A DNA stretch of 64,000 nucleotides. Source: Brevibacterium paucivorans. GTDB taxonomy: Bacteria > Actinomycetota > Actinomycetes > Actinomycetales > Brevibacteriaceae. Position 1 is the first letter of the stretch. Each line of letters opens with the position of its first letter. The position numbers and the translations under genes were made by a program. Below, piece by piece: positions 38,194 to 49,606 of the stretch. The DNA lies in the NCBI RefSeq assembly GCF_016907735.1, contig NZ_JAFBCP010000001.1:682001-746000 (forward strand). The letters are read 5' to 3'. The notes beneath the pieces are model-generated. The model was given only the letters and a program-made list of their open reading frames with translations. It had not been told where the DNA came from and searched no databases.

Positions 38194-39062
38194 GGCTGAC
38201 CCACGACTTGGGCAATGCGTTGCGCTTCATTCGCTACGTCGCGCACGTATTGATCGGACGGGTTGTAGGCCTTGATCGCGTCCGTGTACCCGTTCAGGTC
38301 GCTCAGGTTCCGGTTGTTCGCGCACAGAAAAGCCGCCGCTGACGCTGTCGCGTCGTCAATGTTGTGCGGATCTTTCGTGCCGTCGCCGTTGCCGTCCACT
38401 GCCACCTGATTCCATGTTGCGGGGATGAACTGCATGGGGCCCACAGCTCGGTCGTGTGTGCGGTCGCCGTCGAGTCGCCCTCCGTCAGTGTCGCGGATAT
38501 GCGCCGTACCTTCACCACGCAGTTGAACACCAAAAAGGTGGGGCGTAACCTCGCCGGAGTCGTTCACGCTGGCACCTTTGTAGCGCCCGTGATCGGTCTC
38601 GATTTTGCCGATTCCAGCCAACGTATTCCACGACAACCCGCACTGCGGACTGCGCTGAGCAGCCCACACCGTTGCCGCGACATACGCCTGCAAGACACGC
38701 TTGGGGATCCCCGATTTCTCACTCGTCTCGCGCAACCACGGGTTATCGACGGCAACCCCACCTGCCACTGGGTCAACGGCAGGCATGGAGGGCACAACCG
38801 GCGCTGGAATCTCCACAACTTCCTCGGCCTGGCTGTCCGCCCCGTCCGTGCGGAGGTTTACAAACACCAGCCCTGCAAGTACGACCATCGCAATCGACAT
38901 CGCCATGAGCGGGATTGCCCACCACCGTGATACCCCCGCCGAGGTCGTCGCCGCCTTCGTACTGACCTTGGCTTTCGTACTGGCCTTGGGTTTCGTCGTG
39001 ACCTTGGGGATTTCGACGGTGTCGTGCAGGCTGCTGGCGTAGCGTTCGTCTTCACGGTGCAT
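38163..39062 (-). CDS. Membrane-anchored lytic murein transglycosylase
   Basis: 299 residues. A Lys/Thr-rich cytoplasmic tail (about 18-42) precedes one membrane helix (about 47-68); the extracellular domain is a lysozyme-like fold with catalytic Glu in AGIGKIETDHGRYKG and GPMQFIPATWNQVAVDGNGDG, DDATASAAAFLCANN typical of MltB-type enzymes. It should cleave peptidoglycan glycan strands. AGGGAGGA precedes the ATG, which overlaps the preceding stop as TAATG, tying it to the anchored-repeat ABC operon; opening the wall for surface proteins is a possible role. Confidence 0.88.
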   Translation of the reverse strand: MHREDERYASSLHDTVEIPKVTTKPKASTKAKVSTKAATTSAGVSRWWAIPLMAMSIAMVVLAGLVFVNLRTDGADSQAEEVVEIPAPVVPSMPAVDPVAGGVAVDNPWLRETSEKSGIPKRVLQAYVAATVWAAQRSPQCGLSWNTLAGIGKIETDHGRYKGASVNDSGEVTPHLFGVQLRGEGTAHIRDTDGGRLDGDRTHDRAVGPMQFIPATWNQVAVDGNGDGTKDPHNIDDATASAAAFLCANNRNLSDLNGYTDAIKAYNPSDQYVRDVANEAQRIAQVVGQPAQSEQNGAI

Positions 39063-40987
39063 TATGAGTCCTCCCTGACCCACACGCGGGCGGCCAAGAT
39101 GGCCAGTGCAACGCTGCATGCGAGCGCTGCCCCAAAGACTCCCCACCACCAGTTCGACGGCCCTTCGACCGAGCGCGTTTCTGGGGCCGCTTGGCGAGGT
39201 TCCGCCGGCGGGTTAGCACGCACAATGTCGCCAGTAATCGAGGCCGCTTGGCAGTGACCAATGAGCGCGCCCAGGGGCGAGCCGGCCACCTGAGCTGGCA
39301 GTTTCTTACCCACGTTGAACCGAAGGAGAACTGTGGCCCGGCGTTCGTGCCCGTGAACTTCGCGAGTCAGCGTTTCAAACTCCACGTCATACGCACCCGG
39401 TTGGTTAAACATGAAGGTGGGGGTGCTGAACTGCCCAGGTGTGACCGTCGACTGTGACCCTTGACGAAGGTTCTTGGTGTTTTTCCCTAGCGCATCTTTT
39501 TGCTGAATGAGGACGCTGCCCGGTCCGCTCACACGGGTGAGCGTCACCTCCATAGACTTCACGAGCGCCGGGTCCAGGTCGTTTGCGCTCCACCCCACTG
39601 CGGGCGCGTTTTGGCCACCGGTTGCCCATACCTGAGATCCGGGGGTGGCGAATTCTTTGTCCTGCGTTGTTGAAGGTGTGAACGCGGTGCGCGCTGAATC
39701 TGGCACGGTGACGTTGACGGTTGAGGGTGCGCGTTCTGCCCCGTTCACTTTGACCTGGGTGGGGTTGATGAGCACCTGACCTTGAGTCACGTCAACCATT
39801 TGCCCGTCACCTGCCGGTGCGCACACGTTGGCAGCAACCGGCTGGAAGGGCAGTGCGGCGGGAGTCGGCACGGTCACGCCCGGCGCGGCGCCGTATTGGC
39901 CAGGCATGTTGCCCGAGGTGTCACCCGCCTCCCCAGGGTCCGTTGCGTCTTCGTTGTCGGCGCCTTTGTCGTCGGTCGACGTGTCGTGAGAATCGGAGGG
40001 GCTTTCGGCAGGGTCCCGAGGTACCGGGCTCGTGGGGCCACACTGTGAGTCCGCCACCTGACCTTCTGCCTCCCGGTTGCCCGTATCCCCGCCATCAGCA
40101 TCCCCGTCACCAGCATCCTGGCCGTCCGCCGCCCGGTCGTCAGCCACCTCGGCCCCTTTTGCGGTGACCGTCAGCATCCCGTTGCGCGCCGGTTTCGTGG
40201 CGTCGTCCCTGTACATGGAGTAGGCGACGCAGTGGGTTCCCGGCTCTGAAAACGTCAAGTGCAGCGGCTCGATCGTTGGGGCCGAAATGTCGTAGGCGAA
40301 CGCGTCCCCACGGGCCGCGATGTTCCCGCCTTTAGTGCGGTTGGGGTTGATGACGCCCATGGTTCCGTGTCCGTCGTGTCGGAATGCCATGCGCACGCGC
40401 CCATCCAGTCCGCGTGCGTCAAAATCGGCGTTGGCAACGTACCCCGCCGAGGTGTTTTCTGCCTTGACCGTGTGTTGTTTGGCTCCCGGCTCAGGGGGTT
40501 TGATGCGGTACTTCTCGTCGAGGTCGGTTGGGCAGTCTGCTGGGTCGGTGTCGATCGTGGTGGTGTCGTCTGTGGATTCGACCCGGATGGTTTGGGTGTG
40601 CTGCCGTGGCTCCGTTTTGCCAAGAGAGTGCGCGTGGATGCTCAAGCAGTAGGTGCCAGGGGTGGCTTTCACCTGCACACTCACCGGTTGCGACGGCTTC
40701 GTCTGCACCGCAAACGGCAAGTGTTCCCCGTCGAAGGTCACTTCGTCAGAGATGGTGCGAGGGTCAGTGTCACCCGCGGGCTCAGAGGTGCCAGAATCAC
40801 CTACTTTCGCACCGGCAGACACGCTCAGTGTCACTGGCCCCGCCACCTTCCACTCTTTCGCATTCAGAGTGAGTTCGTTGTCACGTGCTTCAAACACTGC
40901 GTTGGCGTACGCCGGTTGAGGTGTCACGTGTGGCCCAAACACCAGCGCCATGACAGCACAGATTGCTACCCAGAATCGACTTGTCAC
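39062..40987 (-). CDS. Membrane-anchored surface protein with degenerate wall-repeat domains
   Basis: 641 residues: signal peptide (about 1-29), several beta-rich domains, an acidic Asp/Gly/Ala linker (about 285-365), and a C-terminal membrane helix (NWWWGVFGAALACSVALAI) with a short basic end but no LPXTG. The domain from about 395 to 570 (VDVTQGQVLI, PGSQVWATGG, VGWSANDLD, VSGPGSVLI, FMFNQPGAYDVEFE, LRFNVG) follows the actinobacterial wall-repeat pattern strand by strand, but the H-x-H present in its siblings is replaced by STP. GTG start at 40987 overlaps the permease stop. Likely an accessory receptor of the same transporter. Confidence 0.75.
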   Translation of the reverse strand: MTSRFWVAICAVMALVFGPHVTPQPAYANAVFEARDNELTLNAKEWKVAGPVTLSVSAGAKVGDSGTSEPAGDTDPRTISDEVTFDGEHLPFAVQTKPSQPVSVQVKATPGTYCLSIHAHSLGKTEPRQHTQTIRVESTDDTTTIDTDPADCPTDLDEKYRIKPPEPGAKQHTVKAENTSAGYVANADFDARGLDGRVRMAFRHDGHGTMGVINPNRTKGGNIAARGDAFAYDISAPTIEPLHLTFSEPGTHCVAYSMYRDDATKPARNGMLTVTAKGAEVADDRAADGQDAGDGDADGGDTGNREAEGQVADSQCGPTSPVPRDPAESPSDSHDTSTDDKGADNEDATDPGEAGDTSGNMPGQYGAAPGVTVPTPAALPFQPVAANVCAPAGDGQMVDVTQGQVLINPTQVKVNGAERAPSTVNVTVPDSARTAFTPSTTQDKEFATPGSQVWATGGQNAPAVGWSANDLDPALVKSMEVTLTRVSGPGSVLIQQKDALGKNTKNLRQGSQSTVTPGQFSTPTFMFNQPGAYDVEFETLTREVHGHERRATVLLRFNVGKKLPAQVAGSPLGALIGHCQAASITGDIVRANPPAEPRQAAPETRSVEGPSNWWWGVFGAALACSVALAILAARVWVREDS

Positions 40988-41826
40988 AGACGCGCCACCA
41001 TCCCGTGTCGTGGGGCAAACAGCCATGCGAGCAGGAAGAAGCTGGTGAGCACCAGGACGATCGTTCCACCTACGGGGAAGTCAGCGGTCCATGAAATATA
41101 GAGACCAATGAACGCCGACACTGCTCCCAGCGCGGGTGCCAGGAACATCATGGTGGAGAGTTTGTCGGTGAGCAGCCGCGCGGTTGCCGCCGGGGTGATG
41201 AGCAACGACAGTACCAGGATGTTTCCAATGGTCCTGATCGAGACAACGATTGCCAAGGTCACCGCAATGTAGAGGACGATGTCCAGCCAGAAGACTCGGA
41301 GCCCCAACGCTCGCGCGTATTCACGGTCAATGCTCACCGTGACCAGGTCGCGCAAGAAAACCATGAGCACCGCGATCACGACGCAAGCGGTGATAGCCAC
41401 AACGTAGACGTCTGATGTGGGGATACCTGTGATCGACCCGAACAGAAAGTCCGTGAGCGACCCTGCGTAGCCGGGGGACTGCGAAATGATGACGATTCCC
41501 AACGCGAACGCCGCCACGAAGAACACACCAATGACCGAGTCTTCTTTGAGCCTGCGGAACTGCGAAAAGATCGCCACCAAAAGTGCCGTCACAACACCGG
41601 CGATCGCGCCACCCACGACCAAGTTTCCGCCTACCACGAACGCGACGGCAAGCCCCGGAAACACCGAGTGAGCCACCGCGTCACCAATGAAGCTCATGCC
41701 GCGCAACACCACGAAGCAGCCCACGACACCGCACAGAATGCTCGCCATCGTAGCGACCATGAGTGCCTTGGGCAGAAAAACCAGCAGCGGGTTGGTGAGG
41801 TCTGCGAAGAAGTCGAACACGCTCAT
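40984..41826 (-). CDS. Anchored-repeat-type ABC transporter permease (metal ABC-3 family)
   Basis: 280 residues with about eight helices of the ZnuB/MntB (ABC-3) type: GMSFIGDAVAHSVFPGLAVA is the conserved coupling segment, with FFVAAFALGIV and REYARALGL further on. It would move the ligand delivered by the substrate-binding protein through the membrane. ATG at 41826 overlaps the ATPase stop as ATGA. Confidence 0.88.
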   Translation of the reverse strand: MSVFDFFADLTNPLLVFLPKALMVATMASILCGVVGCFVVLRGMSFIGDAVAHSVFPGLAVAFVVGGNLVVGGAIAGVVTALLVAIFSQFRRLKEDSVIGVFFVAAFALGIVIISQSPGYAGSLTDFLFGSITGIPTSDVYVVAITACVVIAVLMVFLRDLVTVSIDREYARALGLRVFWLDIVLYIAVTLAIVVSIRTIGNILVLSLLITPAATARLLTDKLSTMMFLAPALGAVSAFIGLYISWTADFPVGGTIVLVLTSFFLLAWLFAPRHGMVARL

Positions 41827-42560
41827 GCGCTCACCCCCAGTGCAGTCAGCAGAGGTGACTGCGGTTTGAGGCTGAACACATCGCACCACAGTTGCGGGTC
41901 GGTCAGGTTGTGTGGTGAGTCGTACGCTCGGATGTTGCCTTTGAGCATCGCAATGTGTGTACACGTGTGCATGGCCGCCACCAGATCGTGGGTGGCCATG
42001 AGCACCACGGTGCCTTCCTTTGCAAGGGAGATAAACAGGTCAGTGAGCAGTTCCTGGGTGGGCACGTCAACGCCGGTGAAGGGTTCGTCCAGCACCAGCA
42101 ACTGCGGATGCGAGACAAGTGCGCGAGCCACCAAGACACGTTGCTTTTGCCCCCCAGACAATTCGGCAACGGGACGGTCCTTGACCTCTGAAAGATGTAC
42201 TTGTTTGAGCGCGTTATTGACCGCTTTGTAATCCTCGACGGTGGGGCGTTGCCACAGCTTGAAGCGCTTTCCGGTCAGCACGGTGTCTTCAACCGAAATC
42301 GGGAAGTCCCACGCGAACTCGTGCTTTTGGGGCACGTACCCAACACCCACCTCGGCCTGCAAAGTCACCTTCCCGCGGCACGGAATCAGCCCCAGGATGG
42401 AGCGCAACAGGGTGGTCTTTCCAGCCCCGTTGGGACCCACGAGACCTACGAAGCTGCCCGCGGAGATCTCCAGGTTGAGGTTCTCAAGAACCGACCGCCC
42501 GCCCAGTTTTGTACACAGGTCGCGGACGTCTAAAACGGTGGTCGTGTCGTGTGCGCTCAC
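41823..42560 (-). CDS. Anchored-repeat-type ABC transporter ATP-binding protein
   Basis: 245 residues. Walker A GPNGAGKTT, Q-loop VGYVPQKHEFAWDFP, signature LSGGQKQRVLVARAL, Walker B LLVLDEPF and H-loop MATHDL are intact; the overall sequence resembles ZnuC/MntA-type metal importer ATPases. GTG at 42560 overlaps the stop of the upstream surface protein as GTGA. A 68-codon upstream extension overlaps that gene and is rejected. Confidence 0.9.
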   Translation of the reverse strand: MSAHDTTTVLDVRDLCTKLGGRSVLENLNLEISAGSFVGLVGPNGAGKTTLLRSILGLIPCRGKVTLQAEVGVGYVPQKHEFAWDFPISVEDTVLTGKRFKLWQRPTVEDYKAVNNALKQVHLSEVKDRPVAELSGGQKQRVLVARALVSHPQLLVLDEPFTGVDVPTQELLTDLFISLAKEGTVVLMATHDLVAAMHTCTHIAMLKGNIRAYDSPHNLTDPQLWCDVFSLKPQSPLLTALGVSA

Positions 42561-43552
42561 TCGTCCATCCCTGCGGCCTTCTTGCGCTTGCGTGCGTTCG
42601 CTGACATGACGACGACTGAGATCACGGCGATGAGGAAAACGCCGCCCACTCCCGCCGCGATCAGCGGCAGCGCAGAGTTGCCGTCCGACTTCCCGGCGGC
42701 TTTGTTGTCTTCCGCGTTTTCGTTCTGCCCGGATTCGTTGGAAGCGTCGTCTGAGCCCTCCCACTGCATGCTGGCGGCTTTGTCTACGTCAGCTTGGTCT
42801 CCCACGGCAAGGCGAATGGTTTGGGTATCTTCTAATTTTTCGCCCGAGGTGGTTTTCGCACTCACGGACATCTTCACCAAATACTCCCCCGGCTTGGTGA
42901 ATACCCAGTTGGCGTGCGTGTGAGTGTTGAGGTCCACCGAGGCGTCGCGCTGCTGGTCATCCCACACGACCTGTGGGGCACCAAATCCGCCGTTTTGCAG
43001 GTACACGACCATGTCGCCGGGACCCTGCACGCCACGTAGAGACAAGGTGACGTTTCCATCGACTTCGTTGACGAAGCTGGGGTTCTGAGTGTTCCACCCC
43101 AGCCACACGACACCGGGTTGTTCGACCTGCGGGATCACCCACACGTCATCGCCCGCGTTGGCTGGAATGAACGAGTACTGTTCATCGTCTGGCATCTGAA
43201 TCTTGCCGCCCTGATCAACGACTTTGAGCACGGTCTTGTCCAGGTGTCGCCACACGGGTGGGTTAGCGGTGTCGTCGCGAGCCACGAGTTCAGTCTTGCC
43301 GTCCGTAAGGCGTGGGCCAATGTCCACGTGACCGGCGTCGATCGTCGCCTGGTCCTCGCTGAGCTCTTCGGAATCGGAGACGTTCTGTTTGAGCTTTTCT
43401 TCTTCGTCTTCAGCACCGTTGCCTGCAGGTTGGTTTCCCGTGGCATGAGCCGCGGTCGCTGTGAGGGTGGAGGAAGCGGTAACCGCGGCGGGGCTCATTA
43501 CCCCTACAGCTAGTAACGTGCATGCGATCGCTGTCAGTCGAATCGCTTTCAT
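42557..43552 (-). CDS. Membrane-anchored surface protein with one wall-repeat (choice-of-anchor M) domain
   Basis: 331 residues: signal peptide (about 1-30), acidic linker, then one complete repeat domain at about 68-252 running from TIDAGHVDIGPRL through DDVWVIPQ, VVWLGWNTQ, VQGPGDMVVYL and NTHTHANWVFTKPGEY to TIRLAVG. The H-x-H in NTHTH is a candidate metal site. A Ser/Asn/Glu stretch leads to a C-terminal helix and basic tail (SANARKRKK) without LPXTG, so it is membrane-held. ATG at 43552 overlaps the upstream stop as ATGA. Probably an intermediate receptor between wall protein and lipoprotein. Confidence 0.85.
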   Translation of the reverse strand: MKAIRLTAIACTLLAVGVMSPAAVTASSTLTATAAHATGNQPAGNGAEDEEEKLKQNVSDSEELSEDQATIDAGHVDIGPRLTDGKTELVARDDTANPPVWRHLDKTVLKVVDQGGKIQMPDDEQYSFIPANAGDDVWVIPQVEQPGVVWLGWNTQNPSFVNEVDGNVTLSLRGVQGPGDMVVYLQNGGFGAPQVVWDDQQRDASVDLNTHTHANWVFTKPGEYLVKMSVSAKTTSGEKLEDTQTIRLAVGDQADVDKAASMQWEGSDDASNESGQNENAEDNKAAGKSDGNSALPLIAAGVGGVFLIAVISVVVMSANARKRKKAAGMDE

Positions 43553-45126
43553 GTCAGGCATCCTTTCAATGATTGTGCGTTGAACCGCATGAGCTCTTCG
43601 TATGTGGTGACGCGGGAGTCAAACGCGTCCGAGTAGATGTCGCACACGCTCACATTCGCTTCGTCCGCGACTGTTCTGAGCGTGAGCGACCTACCCAATT
43701 GCGGTTCAACGAAGACCGCTGGGACTTTAAGGTTGCGAATGGTGTCGGCGAGCCGAATTCGATCAGTGACACTGGGTTCTACGGCGGGGTTGGGGGTGAC
43801 GAACCCGGCAATGTCCACGTCGTATGCCGCGCCGAGGTACGCAAACGCGTCATGCGTGGTGATGAGGTGGCGTTTGTCTTTGGGGATAGACGCAAGGGTG
43901 TCGCGTACTTCGCGGTCTAGTGCGTCCAACCTGTCCACGTACCGTTTGGCGTTCGCCTCATATGTGCGTGCGTTGTCTGGGTCGGCGTGGGCAAGCGTGT
44001 CACGGATGAGTTTGACGTATGCGATTGCGTTGCTCACGTCATGCCACAGGTGCGGGTCCATTTCGCCGTGTACGTGCTTCCCTAGAACCGCTTGCGGCAA
44101 CAGGTACGTGGACGACCCTGGTTCGCCTAAGAACTTCGAACCGCGTGGGATTTCCTGCCACGCTTTGTTGGTCACGGAAATAACAGTGTCGTCTGGGTCC
44201 AGACTGTCGTGGCCGGCAACGTTGCGTTCGTATGAGCTTTCGCCGAGGTCGGAGCTGGTTTCCTTTTCCGAGTCGGCAAACACGGTGAGGCGTTTGGTGT
44301 CGAGGTCGGTGGTGAGGTCCGCGTGGCCTTCGTCGATGATGCGTTTGTTTTTCAGCTGTGGGTCGGAGTGAGGGTCGACCCCAACGGCGAAGGTGTACGT
44401 ACCCTTTCCGATGTAGGTTTCGTTTTCCGGGTCGGTGGCGAGGTGTGTTTCGAACGTGACCTTGTACACCCCGGGCTTGGAAAACGCCCAGCTCAAGTGG
44501 GTGTGTGCATTGACCGGCAGGGTCGCCACGTCAGAGTCTCCCGCACCGTCTGAGCTGTCAAAGTACAGGGTGTTCTGCCCCAACGCTTGCGTGAGAAACC
44601 CGTGGACGGTGCCCCCGGAAGGGGCAACGACCTCGGTCATTTTCATCCGTACTTCACTGGCACGGTCCGCACCCAACTCACTACCGGCACCTGAAACGCG
44701 CAACCCCAGCCACACGGTGTCAAGAGTCACGTCCTCGACCAATGGGATGACGCGCGCGGAGTACTTGGTAGCACCTTCCGCCAGCCCAATGTTGGGCGCG
44801 TCCGGTGGGATGTTTGCGTCCAGGGTTTTGATGAGTTTGTGTTCTTCCAGCATGACGTAGTTGGAGAAGGCGACGTCGGAATACACGATGTTGCGGACAT
44901 CGCGCAGGGTGGGTTCGTAGGAGTGCGGGTCCGCGTTGGCAGGTACCAACGGAACCACGTTCGCCGCATCACCGGCAACGTTCTTCACCAGGTCAGCGAT
45001 GATGCCGGTCGTGGCAACCACCTGAAGCTGGTCTGTGTTCCGGTGGGTGTACGCACTCCCCTGACACCCCGCGGCCAGCACCGTCACAAGGACAGCGCTG
45101 ACCGCGAGGAACGTACGCCTGATCAT
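43549..45126 (-). CDS. Anchored-repeat ABC transporter substrate-binding lipoprotein
   Basis: 525 residues. Lipobox VLAAGC with Cys21. Cluster-9 (ZnuA-like) halves: about 35-112 (ATTGIIADLVKNV, PHSYEPTLRDV with His68) and about 352-525 (MDPHLWHDV, TTHDAFAYLGAAYDV, FVEPQLGRSL). Between them, about 120-345, is a wall-repeat domain whose order is reversed relative to the neighbours: the WLGL...NAHTHLSWAFSKPGVY...FAVG half (138-249) comes before the IDEGHADL...FLGEPGSSTYLLPQ half (264-345). His208 and His210 form the H-x-H. The canonical ligand histidines of the scaffold (His68, His in DPHLWHD, His in TTHD) remain, so transition metal binding is plausible. Confidence 0.88.
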   Translation of the reverse strand: MIRRTFLAVSAVLVTVLAAGCQGSAYTHRNTDQLQVVATTGIIADLVKNVAGDAANVVPLVPANADPHSYEPTLRDVRNIVYSDVAFSNYVMLEEHKLIKTLDANIPPDAPNIGLAEGATKYSARVIPLVEDVTLDTVWLGLRVSGAGSELGADRASEVRMKMTEVVAPSGGTVHGFLTQALGQNTLYFDSSDGAGDSDVATLPVNAHTHLSWAFSKPGVYKVTFETHLATDPENETYIGKGTYTFAVGVDPHSDPQLKNKRIIDEGHADLTTDLDTKRLTVFADSEKETSSDLGESSYERNVAGHDSLDPDDTVISVTNKAWQEIPRGSKFLGEPGSSTYLLPQAVLGKHVHGEMDPHLWHDVSNAIAYVKLIRDTLAHADPDNARTYEANAKRYVDRLDALDREVRDTLASIPKDKRHLITTHDAFAYLGAAYDVDIAGFVTPNPAVEPSVTDRIRLADTIRNLKVPAVFVEPQLGRSLTLRTVADEANVSVCDIYSDAFDSRVTTYEELMRFNAQSLKGCLT

Positions 45127-47837
45127 GAACGGCGGCGACGTTGCGAAACTACGGCAACGATTCCGATCCCTACGAGCAGACCACCACCGATCAGACCGGC
45201 GGAGATTCCGGAAACACCTGTGCGTGGCAAGGATGGGCGGGCACAGTTGTCCATGTTGCCGGCATCCGCGTTGCTGACGGGAGCGGTTGAGTCACCGCCG
45301 TTGGCGTCAGCGGTTGCCTGGTCCGAGGTGGCCGGATCGCCCTGCTGGTCCGCTGGCTGGTCGCCGGACTGTGCGTCAGCGTTCTGATCGGGCGCCGACT
45401 GGCCAGTTGGGGTGATGTTTCCAGCTCCGGCCTTCGCAGACTGCCCCACTTCGAAGTTCAGGGTTCCGGTGGCCTGGCTGGTGGATCCGTCCTTGAGTTT
45501 CACGGTGAACGTCAGAGTCGCGGTGTAATTACCGGGGGCCGAGAACACCCAGTTGCCGTGTTCGTGTGTGCGCAGAGGAATGTCGTAGGAGTCCCCGGCG
45601 TTACGGAATACGTGTTTCACGCTTCCGCCACCTAGACCACCGCCGCCAACAAACACGTTGAGTTTGCCGGGACCGTTGAGCGAATCGAGTCGCATGGTGA
45701 CTTTCGTTGCGTTATTCACGAGTTGTTCGTCTTGCGTGTTCCATCCCAACCATGGAACTTGCGACTCTTGCGTTTGGCCGATCATGTAAATGTCGGCTCC
45801 TGGTTTGCCCAAGAATCCGAATTCGGCTGGGACCTTCTTCTTCGACGCGTCTCCCAGGACGAACGTCATGTCTGATGGGTTGCGCCACACGGGTGGCGAG
45901 GTGCGGTCGTCTTTCACTTCCGCGGTTGCGCGCTTCCCGTTGAGGCGGGCACCAAAGTCGAAGTGACCGTCAGTCACGCGAACACGCTGGCCTGCGGGGG
46001 CTTGCTGGCCGCTTCCACCGCCTGTGCTCCCGTTGTTTCCTTGGCTCGCACCGGAGTTGCTTTGGCCACTGGCGTCAGTGCCCTGGCCGGCTGCACCAGA
46101 TGCGTCGGTTGGGACACATACAACGGGAGCCTGTGCGGGTGCGGAGTTGTTGTTGGCACCTGCGCCACCGCTGTTGCCGGCGTTGGCGTTGTCGGCATTT
46201 CCGCCGTTCCCCTCAGCGTCGTCACCTGAGCCAACTTTAAGGGTGACTGGTTCAGATTCGACGCGTTCGTCGCCTGATGTGTGTACAGCACGAAACTGAA
46301 CGCCGTCGAACTCTTTAGTCAGAGACGGAATGATGATCTGGCGTGAGGATACTGCCTTCTTACCGTCTTTGTATTCCATCCATTTTTCAGACTCCGACGC
46401 GCGGGTTTCCCACACCAGTTTTCCTGCGACTTTAAGCGGTTGACCGCCGTTATCTGAGGTTTGGCTGTAGGTGGCTTCTGCGCGTGCGTCTTGGCCTTCG
46501 ACGTATTCGTCTTGGTCCAAGGTCGTGGTGAGTGTGAAGTCGTACTGAGAGTCGTCCTCGTCGGATGGGGATTCCGAGGTGGAAGGCTCTGGTTCCTGTG
46601 GCTCTTGGGGCTCCTGCGGAGCCTCGGATTCACCTGGTTCGACCTTCAGTTCTACTTCGTTTGACCGTGTTTCCCCGGCATAGACGGCGCGAAACGCGGT
46701 GCCCGAGTCAGTTGCTTCGAGGTTTTCGATGCGGAGTTCTTTTCCTTGAGCCGCTTCAACGGGTTCCCACGTGTCTGAACCAGGTGCTTTGCGTTCCCAC
46801 GACACTAGTCCGTTTTCGTCGCCACCGTTCACCGTGGCGCTAAGTACCGCTGTGTCACCGGCGGCGTATTGCTCTTTGTCAGCTTTCGCCTCGATGGCGA
46901 CACCCGGTTGTTGTGGTGCCGGCTGTTCTGGTTTGCCGCTTGGTGAGGGGGCGGGCTTATCAGTGGCTGGCGCTGATGGTGGTGTCGTTGGTTCCGAGGT
47001 GGGAGCTGGTTTTGGTGTTTGGGTTGTGGGTTTTGGTGCTGGTTTGGGCTTGTCGAGGTCTTCAAGTTCAGCTTTGTTCAGTTTGCCTACAACGAACACG
47101 TACTCTTGTTCGCCAGCGACGTCTTTGCCCTTGACTTCTGCGTTTGACTCGAAAACAAGGCGGTAGACACCCGGTTTAGTGAAAACCCAGTTCGCGTGAA
47201 CGTGAGCGTTTGCGATCTGTTCGTAGCTGGAGTGCTTGGGATCGGTGAGTGAGAAAACTCGTTGCGGTCCACCAAACAAACCGTCTTGGAATACCTCGAC
47301 GTTGGCACCCTTTGGTGCTTGAGACTTCTTTTGGTTCAGCTGCATGGTGACTTTGCCGCCTTTGACATCCTTTTCAGCGATGTCTTGGGTGTTCCAGCCT
47401 GCCCAGAGGCCGTCGTGGTTCTGGCCCTGTGGGATCATCCATGCTTGTTTTCCTGCCGCGTGAGTAAACTCGAATCCTTTGGCAGGTATTTTTCTTTTAA
47501 GTGCGTCGTTGACGTGGAAGAGCAGTTCGTTGGCCGGTTCGCGTGCGTGCTCGTACTTGCCATTGGAAGGCGCCCAGTCGACCTTGGAGAACATGTGCAT
47601 TTTCCCGCCACGAATGCACATGGAAACTGCGTCAGCGTGTTCGGTCTCAACGACGTTGCGTTTACCGATTTTGGGTACGTCTGCACGAAGCCCGGTGGCG
47701 TCGGCGCCACAGACGGGTGCAGATGAAGCAGTGTAGGTATTGTCAGTTGGGGTGGCGTGGGCTGCGGTGCCCAGCGCTGATGCTATGAGAGCGACAGAGG
47801 TGGCGAATCCCGCCACAGCACGACCAAGAAACAGCAC
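45123..47837 (-). CDS. Large LPXTG-anchored surface protein with duplicated wall-repeat domain
   Basis: 904 residues. Signal peptide about 1-28; repeat domain 1 about 62-251 (H212-V-H214 in NAHVHANWVFTKPG); Pro/Thr/Lys-rich linker about 255-318; two Ig-like domains about 318-408 and 435-555; Asn/Gly/Ser linker with one VVCVPT stretch; repeat domain 2 about 650-820 (THEHGNWVFSAPG); Asp/Gln/Gly linker; LPRTG at 870-874, hydrophobic helix and RRRRS. Known pattern of the TIGR03769 family: a sortase-anchored protein with two copies beside an importer whose binding protein has one, read as a ligand relay. First gene of the operon; GTG start, weak ribosome site. Confidence 0.87.
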   Translation of the reverse strand: MLFLGRAVAGFATSVALIASALGTAAHATPTDNTYTASSAPVCGADATGLRADVPKIGKRNVVETEHADAVSMCIRGGKMHMFSKVDWAPSNGKYEHAREPANELLFHVNDALKRKIPAKGFEFTHAAGKQAWMIPQGQNHDGLWAGWNTQDIAEKDVKGGKVTMQLNQKKSQAPKGANVEVFQDGLFGGPQRVFSLTDPKHSSYEQIANAHVHANWVFTKPGVYRLVFESNAEVKGKDVAGEQEYVFVVGKLNKAELEDLDKPKPAPKPTTQTPKPAPTSEPTTPPSAPATDKPAPSPSGKPEQPAPQQPGVAIEAKADKEQYAAGDTAVLSATVNGGDENGLVSWERKAPGSDTWEPVEAAQGKELRIENLEATDSGTAFRAVYAGETRSNEVELKVEPGESEAPQEPQEPQEPEPSTSESPSDEDDSQYDFTLTTTLDQDEYVEGQDARAEATYSQTSDNGGQPLKVAGKLVWETRASESEKWMEYKDGKKAVSSRQIIIPSLTKEFDGVQFRAVHTSGDERVESEPVTLKVGSGDDAEGNGGNADNANAGNSGGAGANNNSAPAQAPVVCVPTDASGAAGQGTDASGQSNSGASQGNNGSTGGGSGQQAPAGQRVRVTDGHFDFGARLNGKRATAEVKDDRTSPPVWRNPSDMTFVLGDASKKKVPAEFGFLGKPGADIYMIGQTQESQVPWLGWNTQDEQLVNNATKVTMRLDSLNGPGKLNVFVGGGGLGGGSVKHVFRNAGDSYDIPLRTHEHGNWVFSAPGNYTATLTFTVKLKDGSTSQATGTLNFEVGQSAKAGAGNITPTGQSAPDQNADAQSGDQPADQQGDPATSDQATADANGGDSTAPVSNADAGNMDNCARPSLPRTGVSGISAGLIGGGLLVGIGIVAVVSQRRRRS

Positions 47838-47954
47838 AGTTTCGTCTTTCTATCTCTATTGTCTTTTCCTCCCAAACAGTAAAAACGAAACGTCGTAGTG
47901 TCATAGCTTTATGTAAATATACGTGCATATGCGGGGTGAGTGACGGCAGACAAA

Positions 47955-47989
47955 AATCGGGCCCCAAGCGTGATGCTTGAGGCCCGATT
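47955..47989 (-). terminator. Rho-independent terminator of groEL
   Basis: On the minus strand AATCGGGCCTCAAGC pairs with GCTTGGGGCCCGATT (one G-T wobble) around a 5-nt loop, followed by TTTTTG. It lies 15 nt past the groEL stop. Bases 47838-47954 between it and the LPXTG gene contain that operon's AT-richer promoter region and no supported gene. Confidence 0.88.
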
Positions 47990-48004
47990 CTTTAGAAGTG
48001 ACGT

Positions 48005-49606
<1,602 letters not shown>

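Follow-up and report, generated by a model that had tools for sequence, protein, structure and literature searches.

A circularly permuted HxD/HxH domain inserted in a predicted zinc-binding lipoprotein of Brevibacterium paucivorans

The znu/anchored-repeat gene cluster of Brevibacterium paucivorans encodes a substrate-binding lipoprotein (SBP) of the AztC/ZnuA type, in which a complete but permuted HxD/HxH domain, of the kind found in the neighbouring proteins, takes the place of the loop that precedes the second metal ligand. The whole domain is present once, its native ends are joined and new ends lie elsewhere, which makes it, by sequence, a circular permutant. The HxD/HxH motif was taken as family-defining by our own choice. 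All coordinates below refer to the window, i.e. the whole stretch of 64,000 nucleotides that was analysed, and all features named lie on its minus strand.

The SBP gene (43549..45126) encodes a 525-aa metal-type substrate-binding lipoprotein, assigned as the ZnuA of the cluster from its translation and from matches to TIGR03772 and PF01297. It is part of a gene run, with several genes overlapping, that consists of genes for a 904-aa wall protein, the SBP, a 334-aa ZnuE-like protein, an ATPase, a permease and a 654-aa protein. The 904-aa wall protein (45123..47837) carries an LPRTG sortase signal at residue 870 and two unpermuted domains (47079-47666 and 45438-45992), all recognised through NF038134 matches except the signal itself. 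The ZnuE-like protein (42557..43561; 334 aa from the first start) matches NF038134 at 3.5e-55 and has a C-terminal hydrophobic stretch; its unpermuted domain (42794-43357), located by NF038134 and a structural model, includes H10, D12, H146 and H148 in domain numbering. The ABC ATPase (41823..42764) and ABC permease (40984..41964) were identified with TIGR03771 and TIGR03770, respectively. In the 654-aa protein (39062..41026), the domain is degenerate, matching NF038134 below the cut-off (2e-12), and a motif scan found no HxD/HxH residues in place. A search of the window for a Zur box with up to 2 mismatches, using an actinobacterial palindrome, gave 0 matches. The closest named locus is that of B. 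mcbrellneri, which shares ~91% DNA identity over 12.8 kb.

Two sets of related proteins were used for comparison. The first comprises 80 loci kept from 433 confirmed relatives in a locus scan; as they were fetched by two short patterns from permuted SBPs, which include HTH and PQAV, this set favours query-like SBPs. One SBP per locus and the window's own give 81 SBPs, one of which (L039) is a near copy (99%) of the window protein. The same loci and the window yielded 381 wall domains scoring >40 bits over 90% of the profile, and 140 of the 176 wall domains left after thinning were used in the model alignment. The second set consists of 26 SBPs matched by TIGR03772 in a sample of 394 genomes of the class (27 with matches, counting that of the window), and 25 of these come from families other than that of the window genome, though some of the 26 are possibly close to the 80 loci and TIGR03772 was itself built on such proteins. 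The domain family was found in 23 of 296 sampled genomes; 22 of these also belong to the 27 genomes in which the SBP family occurs, and the remaining one (G516) has a split partial match only.

The arrangement of the cluster is retained across the first set. In all 80 loci, the gene next downstream of the SBP gene encodes a domain protein, with the domain starting within 900 bases, and the ATPase and permease genes follow in 78, the other two loci ending at a contig end. A domain-bearing ORF is also found directly upstream in 64 of the 80.

The SBP has a lipobox (AAGC, Cys21), and a loose lipobox pattern occurs near the N-terminus in 76 of the 80 related SBPs. Residues 35-525 match TIGR03772 with 665.2 bits (4.9e-200), well above the curated cut-off of 350.45 bits, making the protein a member of that family; PF01297 matches at 1.4e-67, and the AztC model is the next best NCBIfam match. 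The AlphaFold2 model of the SBP, when the insert is left aside, is a plain ZnuA fold of two lobes. AztC (5w57) heads the list of solved folds for this model (VIA Z 32.0, rmsd 2.5, 276 residues aligned), a rank that is tied within 1 Z with several manganese/iron SBPs, including YfeA and Listeria MntA (both 31.7), while E. coli ZnuA (2osv) gives Z 27.6.

The N-terminal ZnuA lobe (residues 33-129; 44740..45030) was defined by alignment to AztC and PsaA and by the VIA match to 5w57, and includes the putative ligand H68 in the segment DPHSYEP. The C-terminal ZnuA part (residues 347-525; 43552..44088), defined by alignment to AztC, includes H359, H425 and D500. H359 and H425 align with H138 and H204 of AztC, and D500 with the Asp of the AztC YSDA segment, which we take to be a metal ligand. 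H68, H359 and H425 are invariant in the 81 SBPs, and D500 is present in at least 90%. Judged from these alignments, the SBP is a ZnuA/AztC-type (Cluster A-I) metal-binding lipoprotein with a predicted three-His-plus-Asp pocket of the zinc type. PsaA has Glu at the position where H425 of the SBP aligns with H204 of AztC, which suits zinc, and zinc would be the metal bound.

The inserted choice-of-anchor-M (HxD/HxH) domain occupies residues 133-346 (44089..44730) between the two ZnuA parts, as defined by a doubled-profile test, a residue map and the structural model. The native second half is placed first (residues 133-250; 44377..44730) and contains 9 strands and the HxH residues H208 and H210. 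A linker, residues 251-260 (44347..44376), then joins the native C-terminus to the native N-terminus; it was delimited from the coordinates and from the linker lengths in the 81 SBPs, which have a median of 10 residues and a range of 6-13. The native first half is placed second (residues 261-346; 44089..44346), with 7 strands and the segment G267-H268-x-D270. Both halves were assigned by profile matches, the model and the residue map. The cut falls directly after the vWvlPQ strand, between profile positions 77 and 78. The preliminary description had placed these boundaries close by, and its proposal of a complete circularly permuted domain inside a ZnuA-like loop is borne out by the profile tests, the strand order and the residue map.

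In the SBP gene, the NCBIfam domain model matches first with its positions 57-184 (67.2 bits) and then with positions 2-73 (22.6 bits). Run over the whole genome, the same model matches the 334-aa and 904-aa neighbours with positions 2-184 in one piece per domain. Against NF038134, the SBP totals 86.1 bits in two stretches and in reverse order, and not as a sequential match of >55 bits; on these profile matches, the insert is a permuted relative of NF038134 rather than a colinear member.

The permutation was examined across homologues by means of a profile built from 259 of the wall domains, with no SBP included. The linear profile matched all 81 SBPs in two pieces in the permuted order. With the profile doubled, the pieces were joined into a single path spanning a median of 187 of the 188 positions, and the median best score rose from 78.3 to 129.6 bits; a gain of >5 bits was seen in 81/81 (median gain 51). 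When the insert was re-joined in native order, the linear profile scored it at a median of 123.7 bits. Controls behaved as follows: none of 122 held-out linear wall domains gained >5 bits on the doubled profile, whereas all 122 did so when deliberately cut at residue 80. None of the 81 ZnuA cores gained, with 2.7 bits at most; noise gave a gain of >5 bits in one of 81 shuffled inserts; and no score above 1.7 bits was seen among 27 plain ZnuA-family proteins. The comparison of permuted with sequential alignment across homologues that had been suggested at the outset therefore came out in favour of the permuted one. All 26 SBPs of the second set are likewise permuted.

The ends of the doubled-profile path bear on the further suggestion that the vWvIPQ strand is represented at both ends of the insert. 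In 79 of the 81 full-length rows the path ends at doubled position 265, which corresponds to 77 in the second copy; one row ends at 266 and one at 301. It starts at position 77 or before in 65 rows, most commonly at 73, and at position 78 or later in the other 16. Hence 65/81 rows show a weak, short overlap around VIPL, and the circle is complete without the positions concerned. VIPL itself lies in the ZnuA part, where the model shows a bridge at residue 128 but otherwise no strand over residues 124-129.

Among the 80 loci and the window, 81 ORFs include both a ZnuA lobe and the domain; all are permuted and none has the native order, in a set drawn from loci that were fetched by permuted-SBP patterns, TIGR03772 likewise being a model of such proteins; SBPs with the native order may exist beyond this set. 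A second half followed by a first half alone was found in 0 of 303 non-SBP domain ORFs.

The AlphaFold2 models have a mean pLDDT of 96.9 for the ZnuE-like domain and 83.5 (pTM 0.74) for the SBP. The modelled neighbour domain consists of 16 strands of at least 3 residues, 7 before the position of the cut and 9 after it. In the modelled insert, 9 strands are followed by 7, and 16/16 are in the order expected of a circular permutation. Permuted alignment of the insert with the neighbour domain gave 178 columns with 46 identities and a strand agreement of phi 0.76, compared with phi 0.26 for the best of 158 circular shifts. Sequential global alignment gave 121 columns with 41 identities and phi 0.38; to judge by the alignment length, these identities probably come from one half only. 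Compared by strand assignment, the models are thus consistent with a shared fold in permuted strand order. Block pLDDT of the insert is 80-98, except for residues 281-310 (37-73) and the ends, and the junction blocks 121-140 and 341-360 have low means of 57-69 and appear hinge-like, which makes the modelled orientation of the domain tentative. A Foldseek search of the domain fold against the PDB gave no match at E ≤0.001, an absence that excludes nothing. The best VIA match of the domain is to PAD2 chains with Z 6.6; as this value is within the range of common arrangements, no fold family is named here.

As a result of the permutation, the residues of the HxD and HxH motifs of the SBP, H268 and D270, and H208 and H210, are on opposite sides of the linker. 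All four are present in 81/81 SBPs, the invariance of HxH in the 80 loci being partly due to selection, since the fetch patterns contain HTH and PQAV; they are also present in 26/26 SBPs that were fetched by profile instead. In the 381 wall domains, the four positions are conserved in 340, 370, 340 and 339 cases, and all four residues occur together in 339. H10 and an intact HxH are both missing from 41, of which 31 retain D12, and only one has H10 without HxH. These counts show that in wall domains the three His of the motif are kept or lost as one unit. The 41 site-less domains come from 39 loci, many of Micromonosporaceae, and this concentration in kin may reflect a few losses inherited often, so that the Fisher value on these counts is inflated.

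The position of the insert can be related to a known zinc-receiving element. In AztC of Paracoccus denitrificans, the D-loop spans residues 117-133. In a docking model this flexible arm reaches into the chaperone AztD, and both the loop and each of its three His are described as essential for zinc transfer from AztD; the ligand H138 comes next in the sequence (PMC7463823). The SBP and AztC share the same His set by alignment. In the SBP, H359 corresponds to H138, and the insert ends 13 residues ahead of it; H353 aligns to AztC residue 132 (chain index plus 23, with H138 as anchor). Extrapolation beyond the aligned stretch places H351 at AztC 130 and the end of the insert at about AztC 125. By this arithmetic, which rests on alignment rather than superposition, the permuted domain would occupy the D-loop position. 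The position in the sequence also favours the expectation of the preliminary description that the HxH of the domain may lie close to the importer's ligand site. The segment H351-V-H353-G-E355 (44062..44076), between the insert and H359 and by alignment at the D-loop position, is invariant in the 81 SBPs. Both proteins thus have an arm just before the second ligand, which in AztC is needed to receive zinc from its partner (PMC7463823). They differ in the arm, which in AztC is flexible and 17 residues long and in the SBP is itself an HxD/HxH domain; the AztC partner AztD, moreover, is no HxD/HxH domain but a beta-propeller.

The best explanation of these features, which we consider somewhat better than evenly balanced, is that the permuted domain is a built-in receiving module that does in the SBP what the D-loop does in AztC, and relays zinc from the wall and ZnuE-like proteins to the pocket. 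Zinc would be caught by wall proteins of the 904-aa type and by the ZnuE-like protein, and handed to the SBP's own permuted domain, where it would be held at HxD/HxH. It would then move past the invariant H351 and H353 into the pocket of H68, H359, H425 and D500, and from there reach the permease. Permutation would allow both ends of the domain to fit one surface loop and would fix the orientation of the domain relative to the pocket. We infer zinc binding by the SBP domain, docking with like domains and hand-over to the pocket. A more specific version, for which the case is arguable but falls somewhat short of even, is that a permuted version of the donor domain took the place of the receiving arm in a single event, giving a like-to-like relay with a shared three-His-plus-Asp site, in which permutation aims the acceptor at the pocket.

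Alternatively, the permuted domain may be a docking module only, which pairs with ZnuE or wall domains while zinc goes straight to the ZnuA pocket. The projection of the AztC D-loop into AztD in the docking model (PMC7463823) fits such a role, as does the partner with the same domain adjoining the SBP gene in 80/80 loci. However, conservation of the four motif residues in both SBP sets goes beyond what docking would require, and the 41 wall domains mentioned above exist without the site; hence docking alone appears unlikely, though it is the alternative to be taken most seriously.

Buffering or gating of the pocket by the domain, acting as a second zinc site with no relay from the wall, would be consistent with the complete site and the hinge-like junctions; two-domain zinc SBPs do exist (PMC7858048), and AdcA may work in this manner. 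Against this, the gene cluster is kept together, and the homology of the SBP domain to the partner proteins' own domain points to exchange, which makes buffering or gating improbable.

Derivation of the two stretches from tandem repeats, as leftover half domains that fold separately or not at all, has in its favour that tandems are common in wall proteins, where 107 neighbouring pairs were found. However, the linkers between these pairs are at least 25 residues long, so that every one exceeds the 6-13 residues of the SBPs; the halves together make up nearly the entire profile, all 16 strands are predicted with high block pLDDT over most of the insert, and site residues split across the halves are conserved. 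Such an origin is therefore very improbable. A chance or low-complexity similarity, with which the lack of any Pfam-A model matching the insert at E up to 1 would agree, can be set aside in view of the doubled-profile scores, their controls and the permuted order in all 26 SBPs of the genome sample.

The preferred reading, a receiving module at the D-loop position, concerns an open question in Gram-positive bacteria, namely how zinc travels from binders anchored in the wall to the importer in the membrane. In the present cluster, donor and acceptor seem to use the same domain, permuted in the acceptor so as to fit a loop next to the import pocket. In Corynebacterium diphtheriae, zinc represses, through Zur, a cluster likened to the present one by its family names (PMC6711530). 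Zinc-dependent thermal shifts of ZnuE, ZnuF and ZnuG point to zinc binding, ZnuF and ZnuG are located in the wall, and His residues of ZnuE matter for function in growth tests (PMC12445094). ZnuE with His-to-Ala substitutions still shifts with zinc, which leaves zinc binding at the motif unproven, and deletion of znuA affects growth only modestly, a result that weakens the case for an essential SBP (PMC12445094).

The preliminary description knew of no published account of the arrangement, and this holds only in part. The HxD/HxH motif of ZnuA encoded by znuAECB of C. diphtheriae, a similar cluster, had already been printed as reversed (Peng, Lyman, Schmitt 2025, PMC12445094), with 45 residues in between, as compared with 57 between H210 and H268 here. 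That report speaks of a motif and not of a permuted domain; 'permut' is absent from its main text, the models listed in the legend to its Fig. 1D are those of ZnuE, ZnuF and ZnuG, and the available portion of the text gave no role for the reversed motif in ZnuA. The NCBI models TIGR03772, TIGR03769 and NF038134 also already find the repeat in the SBP: NCBIfam names the family 'anchored repeat' and finds a 41-residue repeat piece in the protein, and NF038134 matches it in two stretches, an order that is unremarked in the model names. In AdcA, the additional domain is ZinT-like and fused at the C-terminus, with no insertion and no permutation. AdcA is otherwise like the SBP in being a zinc SBP of two domains (PMC7858048). 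The part of the statement that stands is that on the permutation itself, since no report of a whole-domain permutation, of its probable single origin or of its D-loop position was found in searches of open-access papers. What is new here is thus the complete whole-domain circular permutation, probably of one origin, set in what would be the D-loop position. It could account for the motif reversal printed in 2025 and provides an example of a natural inserted circular permutant, present in every SBP of both sets; exact constructs for testing transfer can now be defined.

The origin of the insert was assessed by profile scores and phylogeny. The ZnuE profile scores below the mixed wall profile in 81/81 SBP domains, weak evidence as the wall profile is broader, and grouping of the SBP and ZnuE domains together was not rejected (p-AU 0.466). 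In a tree of 30 SBP, 30 ZnuE and 70 wall domains, the 30 SBP domains make up one side of a branch with SH-aLRT 100, which defines a clade only if the root lies outside it. The permuted insert therefore probably arose once. The same SBP branch was recovered, again with SH-aLRT 100, in a second tree, from which 11 long-branched wall rows of the 130 had been removed.

Among the 381 full-length, unpermuted choice-of-anchor-M domains of the wall proteins (wall domains), 41, spread over 39 loci, lack both H10 and an intact HxH motif. Loci holding such site-less domains include L056, L058, L069, L057, L050 and L061. The six site-less domains listed carry G in place of H10 and R in place of H146, so the usual HxD/HxH site is unavailable to some tandem domains.

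The run closes with a 654-aa protein (window 39062-41026, minus strand), which gave a degenerate choice-of-anchor-M match of 47.5 bits, under the cut-off of the profile search. HxD/HxH was absent from the expected places in this domain, and the protein is perhaps a site-less partner or a spacer.

Directly upstream of the run lies a gene that we take to be groEL (window 48005-49603), separated from it by a gap (window 47838-48004) containing a terminator-like hairpin recognised by eye. No match to a candidate Zur palindrome consensus was found anywhere in the window.

Outside the window, profile matches in the same genome revealed a second ORF with two choice-of-anchor-M domains (C1:1321396-1323432; 953-aa open frame), possibly encoding a CmrA-like wall protein. 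A ZnuA-family match covering the C-terminal part only (C1:1225788-1226309, also outside the window) indicates that the genome probably encodes a further metal substrate-binding protein, without the choice-of-anchor-M insert.
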